From assembly GCA_016350165.1 (NCBI GenBank), contig CP066225.1, positions 682,001 through 746,000 on the forward strand: a stretch of 64,000 nucleotides of DNA, given 5' to 3'. This document shows, piece after piece, positions 30,555 through 39,730 of this stretch. This DNA is from Planctomycetota bacterium. GTDB lineage: Bacteria > Planctomycetota > Phycisphaerae > Phycisphaerales > Phycisphaeraceae. The notes beneath the pieces were generated by a model. It saw only the letters and a program-made list of their open reading frames with translations. It searched no databases and had not been told where the DNA came from. Each line of letters opens with the position of its first letter. Position 1 is the first letter of the stretch. The translations under genes and the position numbers were made by a program.

Positions 30555-31604
30555 TTAGACTTTGTTTAACATTTGTTCGACTGGAATACATTCACGGTCG
30601 ACTGCTTCTGCAACGCGTTGGAGGTTGACCATGAGGCCATCCATCTGATCTGGTGTGATGGATTGTGCACCGTCGGTCATTGCGTGCGCTGGGTCTTCGT
30701 GCATCTCGATTGCGAGGCCGTCGGCGCCAGCAGCGATTGCGGCTTTAGCCATGGAAGGAACGAGACGAGCGTGTCCTGTGCCATGGGATGGGTCGATAAT
30801 GATTGGAAGGTGTGAACGCATTTGAAGTTCGGGGACAGCTGAGAGGCTGAGGGTGTTGCGTGTGTGATCTTCGAAAGTACGGATACCACGTTCGCAGAGG
30901 ATAACGTTGTTGTTGCCTTCAGCGAGGATGTATTCAGCAGCTTGCAGGTACTCATCGATCGTCATGGACATACCACGCTTGTAAAGAACTGGTTTTGGCT
31001 GCTTGCCACATGCTTCGAGTAGTTTGAAGTTTTGGCTGTTGCGTGTGCCGATTTGAAGACAGTCTGCGTACTTGCTGACGAGTTCGACGTCTGAAGGTGT
31101 GAGTACTTCGGTGACGATCGGGAGGCCGGTTTCATCACGTGCTGCTGCGAGCATTTTGAGGCCATCTTCGCCGAAGCCTTGGAATGCGTATGGGTTTGTG
31201 CGTGGTTTGAATGCGCCGCCACGTAGTGCGTGAGCGCCGGAAGCTTTGACTTGTCGTGCAGCCTCCATGATTTCCTTTTCGCCTTCGACTGAACAAGGGC
31301 CTGCGATGACAGGTACTTGTTTGCCGCCGAAAACGCATGTTTCTGAGAGTTTGATGACAGTCTTTTGGTTGCCGGTGGTTTCGATGGCAGCCATTTTGTA
31401 AGGCGCGAGAACGCGCATCACTTTGCTTACGCCGGGTGCCTGTTCGACGACTGCGCAGTCTTTAAGTCGTTCATCGCCGATGGCGGCGACGACGGTCAGG
31501 TCGGTCCCCACAATAACCTGATCTTTAAGTCCCATTTCTTTGATTAAAGTTTTCACGCCTTCAATCTCCGTTTCACTTGCCCCTGGTCTCATTACCACAA
31601 TCAT
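30555..31604 (-). CDS. aroF: 3-deoxy-7-phosphoheptulonate synthase (DAHP synthase) with N-terminal regulatory domain
   Basis: First enzyme of the shikimate pathway, joining phosphoenolpyruvate and erythrose-4-phosphate. Residues 1-70 form the ferredoxin/ACT-like regulatory domain of the Thermotoga-type (type I-beta) enzymes ([17 protein letters not shown]). The catalytic barrel follows with [78 protein letters not shown] and [11 protein letters not shown], which hold the metal ligands Cys, His, Glu and Asp. At 349 aa it is full length. AGGAG lies seven bases before the ATG. Its leader holds an aromatic leader peptide and a terminator. Confidence 0.95.
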
Positions 31605-31767: not shown

Positions 31768-31800
31768 AAAAAAACCCCGAAGCGTTAGCCGCTGCGGGGT
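31768..31800 (-). terminator. Attenuator terminator in the DAHP synthase leader
   Basis: On the minus strand CCCCG-C-AGCG pairs with CGCT-T-CGGGG (plus 31795-31799 and 31790-31793 with 31781-31784 and 31775-31779), followed by T7 (31768-31774). It lies 32 bases past the leader-peptide stop and 163 bases before the aroF start. The arm GCGGCT (31787-31792) can instead pair with AGCCGC inside the leader peptide (31856-31861). Confidence 0.85.
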
Positions 31801-31820
31801 TTTGGTGTTTTTACCGTTGA

Positions 31821-31843
31821 TTCAGTCATGAATTATGACTGAA
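31821..31843 (-). promoter_or_regulatory. Hairpin at the leader-peptide stop
   Basis: Perfect 9-bp stem TTCAGTCAT / ATGACTGAA with a five-base loop that spans the stop codon of the aromatic leader peptide. It could act as a pause or segment-2 hairpin of the attenuator. Confidence 0.6.
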
Positions 31844-31916
31844 CGAATACCCAGCGCGGCTGTTTGCCGGTAAACCAAAACCAGAAATAATAAAATCGGA
31901 TGGTCGCTGAGTTCAT
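31833..31916 (-). CDS. Aromatic leader peptide of DAHP synthase, 27 aa
   Basis: A short ORF starts at ATG 31916 and ends at TAA 31833. Residues 8-15 read FYYFWFWF, and RWVF follows near the end, so ten of 27 residues are Phe, Tyr or Trp. That density is not expected by chance and matches leader peptides of ribosome-mediated attenuators. Codons 19-21 supply AGCCGC, which can pair with the GCGGCT arm of the downstream terminator. A stalled ribosome at the aromatic run would leave this segment free and prevent termination. No Shine-Dalgarno is close to the ATG. The promoter places the transcript start at or next to the A of the ATG, so translation is probably leaderless. Confidence 0.88.
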   Translation of the reverse strand: MNSATIRFYYFWFWFTGKQPRWVFVQS

Positions 31917-31922
31917 GGTGGA

Positions 31923-31950
31923 AGTATCGCACCTTTGAGGTTTTTGTCAA
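31923..31950 (-). promoter_or_regulatory. Sigma-70-like promoter of the DAHP synthase unit
   Basis: On the minus strand: TTGACA (plus 31945-31950), a 16-base gap, GATACT (31923-31928). Seven bases downstream of the -10 lies position 31916, the first base of the leader-peptide ATG. Confidence 0.75.
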
Positions 31951-37911: not shown

Positions 37912-38217
37912 TAACACAGACCGCAAGAATGTGACCGATTGAGCGAGGCACCATAGCCAGACTCGACGGTAAACAGATCCCGTTATTTGAGATCACACTC
38001 AAGTAACAACATCTCGCATTCTTGTATGGAATTTAAGTTGATAAAACTTATTTTCAGGAATGTGAGACCCTAAAAATTCAAAGTTTAGTCGCTTTGATAC
38101 ATTAGATTGATTGACATCAATTAATGAGACCGACTAGCAACTTCGGTTGTTAGTTACAGGTCAAAAACTTCATTCGAAGTCAATACAAGTCCTTGTGGCT
38201 TGTGACAACGATATAAA

Positions 38218-39730
<1,513 letters not shown>

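Follow-up and report, generated by a model that had tools for sequence, protein, structure and literature searches.

Organization of the aroF leader region

The DNA analysed here (hereafter, the window) is a 64 kb stretch of a genome that consists of one contig of 5.23 Mb. Its minus strand carries the aroF gene, which encodes a DAHP synthase, and the closest AroF proteins in named records mostly bear the labels Phycisphaeraceae (a family within the Planctomycetota), Phycisphaera or Planctomycetota. The region between aroF and a Fur-family gene located upstream contains a short open reading frame (ORF) with a putative promoter of its own, followed by an intrinsic terminator. The features of this locus, and the evidence for each of them, are listed below.

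32694-32104, minus strand (same strand as aroF): Fur-family gene, upstream of the leader
31945-31950, minus strand: -35 box TTGACA (promoter scan)
31923-31928, minus strand: -10 box GATACT, 6 nt ahead of the leader ATG, suggesting a leaderless start
31833-31916, minus strand: putative aroF leader peptide ORF, MNSATIRFYYFWFWFTGKQPRWVFVQS* (translation; aromatic run in relatives)
31872-31895, minus strand: putative sensor codons 8-15, FYYFWFWF (Phe, Tyr and Trp codons; translation)
31857-31869, minus strand: possible anti-antiterminator hairpin CGGC-AAACA-GCCG (hairpin statistics in relatives)
31849-31861, minus strand: antiterminator 5' strand, AGCCGCGC-T-GGGT, within the leader ORF (duplex energy and covariation)
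31820-31844, minus strand: 10-bp hairpin across the leader stop codon (z-score; compensatory change in a congener)
31787-31800, minus strand: antiterminator 3' strand, which is the terminator 5' arm and part of its loop (duplex and covariation)
31799-31775, minus strand: intrinsic terminator hairpin CCCCGCAGCGGCTAACGCTTCGGGG, with the T-run 31774-31768 (fold, covariation)
30555-31604, minus strand: aroF, the presumed regulated gene, DAHP synthase of the PRK08673 / TIGR01361 type (domain assignment)

The leader ORF comprises 27 codons and a stop, and its translation bears out the earlier claim of Phe, Tyr or Trp at ten positions, eight of which are consecutive (FYYFWFWF). It is a short ORF rich in codons for the end products of the pathway, located 5' of a biosynthetic gene of that pathway. 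Among all ORFs of 8-50 amino acids on both strands of the window, it is the only one in which a stretch of 8 residues includes at least 6 aromatics, and the trpE loci of the same family, 259,478 strand-bases in total, contain no ORF of this kind. The promoter claimed for it, TTGACA-16-GATACT, was recovered by a promoter scan at 31950-31923 and ends 6 nt before the A of the leader ATG, a position that fits a transcription start at about 31916. No sigma-70-like promoter was found by the scan on this strand between the terminator and aroF.

An intrinsic terminator lies between the leader ORF and aroF, where folding supports the strong terminator originally placed at 31768-31800 (31799-31775 plus the T-run; -15.8 kcal/mol); it is missing from the list produced by a simple terminator scan of the window because its stem has a mismatch. 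The sequence AGCCGC (31861-31856), which extends across codons 19-21, is the exact complement of GCGGCT (31792-31787). This complementarity had been predicted correctly; however, GCGGCT is not contained in the 5' arm of the terminator, but lies half in that arm and half in the loop according to the fold. The predicted core of the antiterminator also stands, whereas its length does not, as 12 pairs rather than 6 were computed, in an imperfect duplex (-21.6 kcal/mol) of AGCCGCGC and GGGT (31861-31849) with 31800-31787. The terminator and the antiterminator use the same 5' arm, and duplex energies and covariation indicate that the two are mutually exclusive. The ORF, the promoter, the terminator and the complementary segment of the original prediction have thus all been confirmed in position.

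A further hairpin, predicted to cross the stop codon of the ORF, was found at 31844-31820 with 10 bp, including one G-U pair, in place of the 9 bp expected (z = -6.6). It is also present in the congener L003 (z = -4.0), and an alignment of the two shows one two-sided compensatory change. A z-score of -2 or below was obtained for just 2 of 35 family leaders, and this hairpin was rejected as a general element of the system because it is strong solely in this genus, in which it is possibly a pause hairpin for RNA polymerase.

Conservation and covariation within the family

The family referred to here is defined by the taxonomic label given with the genomes. A search for aroF orthologues in 51 family genomes produced 44 strong places, and the upstream regions of 42 of them were examined, with the partial aroF genes of G018 and G039 left out. 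In 36 of these 42 upstream regions, representing 22 genera by their labels, a terminator follows an aromatic leader ORF. The 36 leaders include 35 that were recognized by script and one (L039, with a GTG start and a weaker run) that was recognized by eye. The terminator is present downstream in all 36, and it is still visible in L018, for which the sequence is cut 74 nt upstream of aroF. The structural tests were carried out on 35 leaders, without L042, whose terminator arm ends in GAGG and was missed by the pattern; its terminator was found separately. No leader was found before aroF in five of the 42 upstream regions (L017, L021, L023, L027, and L043). Leader loss in these family members may be tied to rearrangement, because three of the five loci have a tRNA gene beside aroF (Leu, Thr and Leu tRNA genes just upstream, at L021 1331-1414, L023 2577-2651, and L027 1292-1375, respectively).

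The consensus of the family leaders, drawn by eye, is approximately M....FYFGYFWFTRPxAAxG. Phe, Tyr and Trp interchange at several positions of the run; Phe is present in all 35 leaders and all three residues in 27 of them. A promoter with at least 9 of 12 matches, located 4-12 nt ahead of the leader start, was identified for 33 of the 35 leaders and at 1.0% of random positions of the same DNA, and the distance from the end of the -10 box to the leader start codon is 6-10 nt in 33 of 35. The match to AGGAGG before the start codon has a median of 2/6 for the leaders (4/6 for that of the window) and of 5/6 for aroF. A leaderless start of the family leaders appears likely from the position of their promoters.

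The native duplexes of ORF and terminator have a mean energy of -20.9 kcal/mol (n = 35). This mean weakens to -18.2 kcal/mol when terminators are swapped between leaders (0 of 10000 permutations as good), to -16.0 kcal/mol when synonymous codons are redrawn, and to -13.1 kcal/mol for shuffled sequences (0 of 300 as strong in each of the last two cases). The preference of leaders for their own terminator holds for the mean only, since individual leaders often form a stronger duplex with certain foreign terminators (29 of 34 in the case of L007). The antiterminator duplexes of the 35 leaders contain 8-16 pairs, with a median of 12. Two-sided changes occur at 8 of 11 antiterminator pairs (shuffles, 0/500) and at 4 of 9 terminator pairs (shuffles, 15/500), counts that are inflated by relatedness, although slid controls are far lower. 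The alignment of relatives, which had been proposed as a check with the original prediction, hence shows a conserved aromatic run and terminator (36/42) and a covarying antiterminator, and the attenuator reading is supported by family conservation, by this covariation and by the geometry of promoter and ATG.

Between the aromatic codons and the antiterminator strand, the window's leader contains CGGC-AAACA-GCCG; when this hairpin is free of a ribosome, it could mask the beginning of the antiterminator. A hairpin of -2 kcal/mol or below occurs within 36 nt past the aromatic run in 32 of the 35 family leaders, and the mean for this post-run hairpin was reached in 1 of 200 synonymous null sets and in 0 of 200 shuffled sets. 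The exact form CGGC-N3-6-GCCG is present in 15 of 35, and the CGGC-N5-GCCG hairpin directly after the aromatic codons may represent an anti-antiterminator.

Aromatic leaders outside the family

Outside the family, 102 aroF upstream regions were examined (64 mostly from the class and 38 from the wider phylum) with a threshold of at least 5 aromatic residues in 8. This set retains near-duplicates of the same identity or spacing (L077/L183 and L078/L190), of which L077/L183 have just 61 nt of upstream sequence, as well as L082 from another phylum. An aromatic ORF is present in 37 of the 102 (19/64 in the class set and 18/38 in the wider phylum), compared with one on the 102 reverse strands (none in the class set and one in the wider phylum) and an average of 0.6 in 64 for shuffled class sequences; the same scan found none in the other 65 of these upstream regions. 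A terminator follows 35 of the 37 ORFs. The ORF and the terminator pair with a z-score of -1.5 or below in 32 of these 35, as against 30 of 35 within the family; for the outside set, selection was for the ORF of highest aromatic score and the terminator of greatest stability, which makes its energies best-of choices, and its z-scores are relative to shuffles of the ORF part alone. The leaders outside the family vary in sequence (e.g., FYYFRYYYRKG, WHFFGYWFTTSG, and FYGFGFWYPTG), and hence it is the aromatic character and the pairing that are kept, and not the peptide.

A promoter as defined for the family (at least 9/12 matches, 4-12 nt ahead of the start) precedes 15 of 19 leaders in the set labelled as the class and 1 of 18 in the wider phylum set. 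Because of this difference, the leaderless start looks like a trait of the class and not of the whole phylum.

The covariance model R1 provides matches immediately upstream of aroF in four genomes outside the family (G258, G108, G114, and G132), and from the R1 search of the class only these four matches adjoining aroF were taken as evidence. The overall tally of that search (80 of 397 genomes at E <= 0.01) was dropped, as many of the matches outside the family cover the terminator end alone and may be ordinary terminators. No second strong copy of R1 was found in the source genome, where the next best match (E 0.126) covers the terminator end only. In families f2, f4, and f5 of the same order, only G204 (f4) has a listed homologue of this DAHP synthase (E <= 1e-60).

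Proposed mechanism, its alternatives and related loci

The first paired base of the antiterminator follows the last aromatic codon by a median of 12 nt in the 35 leaders, and a median of 4 nt separates its last paired base from the leader stop downstream. These spacings correspond approximately to how far a ribosome extends in either direction. Equilibrium folding, in which the last aromatic codon was taken as the last within the first 18 residues (a definition slightly different from that used in the nascent-RNA folding), gave an ambiguous picture of the switch: the terminator is present in all 35 leaders when the ribosome occupies the stop, in 24 when it occupies the last aromatic codon, and in 11 when it is three codons earlier, and the window's own leader forms the terminator in every ribosome state. 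Folding of the nascent RNA was carried out thereafter, with a 27-nt ribosome mask and the antiterminator counted as formed at 5 or more pairs. The antiterminator forms in 33 of 35 leaders when the mask is placed over the last aromatic codon; when the mask is at the stop, the antiterminator forms in 4 and is hidden in 31. Because the switch is less apparent at equilibrium, we infer that the switch would be under kinetic control during transcription.

The window's leader and that of its congener L003 are among the four that are not masked by a ribosome at the stop, which in these two is located farther downstream, leaving the greater part of the antiterminator unmasked (8.6 and 7.6 pairs, respectively). 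In the nascent-RNA fold, codons 2-4 of the window's leader are also able to pair with the antiterminator strand, and we conjecture that in these two leaders such pairing, or the hairpin across the stop codon, stands in for masking.

The most probable reading of these results, in which we have high confidence, is that the region constitutes a ribosome-mediated transcription attenuator of aroF that senses charged Phe-, Tyr- and Trp-tRNA. Judging from the promoter, transcription would start at the leader ATG or no more than about 4 nt from it, and the leader would be translated by a ribosome. When all three charged tRNAs are plentiful, the ribosome would reach the stop codon and occlude a portion of the antiterminator strand, with the terminator predicted to form, as computed for the family. 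When one of them is short, the ribosome would stall in the aromatic run, with a computed footprint that lies over the short post-run hairpin and ends about at the start of the antiterminator. The antiterminator is then predicted to capture the 5' arm of the terminator before the 3' arm is made, which would permit read-through into aroF. As the run mixes codons for all three products, lack of any one of Phe, Tyr and Trp should raise DAHP synthase. Several results count against this reading: the equilibrium folds, the unmasked leaders of the window and its congener, the read-through predicted for untranslated leaders, the affinity of individual leaders for foreign terminators, the five family members and the 65 outside upstream regions in which no leader was found, and a second gene of the DAHP synthase family in the genome that likewise has none.

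TnaC is an arrest peptide, and the leader could by analogy act through a nascent chain containing FWF that stalls the ribosome on a free aromatic amino acid and thereby controls the same terminator. The last three positions of the run (-2, -1, and 0) are indeed mostly F, W, and F (30, 25, and 30 of 35), and T and R after the run (18/35 each) might reflect a conserved arrest motif. However, RNA pairing can account for the residues that follow the run, the run outside the family stays aromatic without conservation of its sequence, and induction of a biosynthetic gene by surplus of its product would be the wrong direction of response, which renders this explanation improbable. Even less probability attaches to an ordinary terminator of the upstream Fur-family gene combined with a chance ORF. 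That gene is on the same strand, and such a terminator would also block read-through from upstream, but the ORF, promoter and antiterminator are conserved together in most relatives examined (36/42; promoter 33/35) with covariation, and aromatic ORFs of this kind are nearly absent from the controls, so that conservation largely refutes it. A functional small hydrophobic protein, with the terminator secondary, would fit the conservation of a short hydrophobic ORF and the promoter that precedes it, but is similarly implausible, as F, Y, and W swap within the run, the C-terminal half follows the RNA pairing, and this pairing is weakened when synonymous codons are redrawn.

Taking the attenuator reading as the preferred one, we consider it somewhat probable that the Planctomycetota share an old and widespread attenuator sensing Phe, Tyr and Trp on this type of DAHP synthase, with leaderless mRNA in the Phycisphaerae. 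The attenuator itself would extend leader-peptide attenuation to this phylum on comparative evidence from many families, and for a specific enzyme at the entry of the shikimate pathway. The nucleus-like internal membranes of Planctomycetota have long been debated, and their cell plan has been argued to separate transcription from translation. If the proposal is correct, these two processes would be physically coupled in Planctomycetota, because an attenuator needs a ribosome close behind RNA polymerase, and the leader would provide a natural reporter for such coupling. The conserved and probably leaderless start would also allow a clean test of whether, outside Actinobacteria, translation initiates on a 5'-terminal AUG quickly enough for attenuation.

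In the trpL, pheL, and hisL leaders of Escherichia coli, a stalled ribosome sets an antiterminator against a terminator, and the proposed mechanism is alike in this regard. Unlike in E. coli trp, the untranslated state is predicted to read through in 30 of 35 family leaders, since the antiterminator forms in that many when no ribosome is present in the nascent-RNA fold. A Rfam search at the locus found no family that reaches its gathering score (Phe_leader RF01859, 17.5 bits vs. 55; His_leader, 23.8 vs. 49; Leu_leader, 20.1 vs. 50; Thr_leader, 19.6 vs. 55; and the trpB motif RF04312, 25.8 vs. 59).

An AroR-aroF attenuator in Corynebacterium glutamicum was reportedly described by Neshat et al. 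in 2014. A Phe-Tyr-Phe leader before aroF is described in this species (PMC4046766), and a review states that Phe limitation raises its aroF operon (PMC11802643). That system resembles the one proposed here in that its attenuation is ribosome-mediated, involves an aromatic leader peptide and precedes a gene for DAHP synthase; however, the response reported is to Phe and not to Tyr, whereas the leader described here has eight consecutive aromatics including Trp, belongs to another phylum, and has an antiterminator that covaries over 22 genera of one family. The uORFC-13-1 element of Acholeplasma, found exclusively before aroF and predicted to act by attenuation (PMC8632094), is similar in having an upstream ORF with Phe codons, a possible promoter, a terminator and aroF downstream. 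As described, it is limited to Acholeplasma and unknown organisms and is characterized by a ribosome-binding site and at least one Phe codon, in contrast to the planctomycete leaders, which mostly have no clear Shine-Dalgarno sequence and carry a mixed Phe/Tyr/Trp run. The TrpL1, LeuL2, and IlvL leader peptides of Streptomyces lividans are also encoded on leaderless transcripts with a terminator downstream (PMC8079986), but they involve other amino acids and genes, and their start sites were measured, whereas here the start is predicted from the promoter. An aroF attenuator is listed for Shewanella (PMC2659441), actinobacterial attenuators have been surveyed (PMC1262725), and leader genes in Planctomycetes have been counted by distance in a study whose available part shows no aromatic attenuator (PMC4833913).

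The original prediction attributed amino-acid leader peptides to Proteobacteria; they have also been published before DAHP synthase outside this group (in Corynebacterium and, as a prediction, in Acholeplasma). It also knew of no such leader in the present phylum, and our search agrees: no description of an aromatic attenuator in Planctomycetota was found in the open-access literature, a scope outside of which the older surveys fall (Lopatovskaya 2010; Vitreschak 2004). As far as we have searched, the kind of switch is known, and the phylum and the breadth of its occurrence are new.

The PF00793 domain was detected in the source genome in aroF, in a weaker hit that AroF itself matches at 31% (probably a KDO8P synthase, a guess from family resemblance), and in a further gene of the DAHP synthase family (G000:C1:3085560-3086450; L224). 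No aromatic leader was found in the 500 nt upstream of the latter gene, no comparable leader was seen upstream of pheA, and a search of the genome with PF01474 gave no match. The window also contains a 16S rRNA gene (38216-39724), and the lack of 23S and 5S rRNA genes in the window by Rfam search suggests that it is unlinked.

Upstream of trpE (G000:C1:4880814-4882418; L228/L230), the ORF MKYMTTAYWQVYWRRWQS begins at a distance of about 140 nt and is a candidate Trp leader peptide by its sequence; no T-rich terminator was found after it by a simple pattern. ORFs with at least two W in 8 were found in 13 of 30 trpE upstream regions, compared with 2 of 30 reverse strands; several of these ORFs seem to lie within the gene that precedes trpE. 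Trp-rich ORFs precede trpE in some relatives (e.g., L232, L240, and L245), and the upstream region of trpE in the congener (L231) contains a counterpart ORF, MNHKHAAYWQVYWRRWQS.
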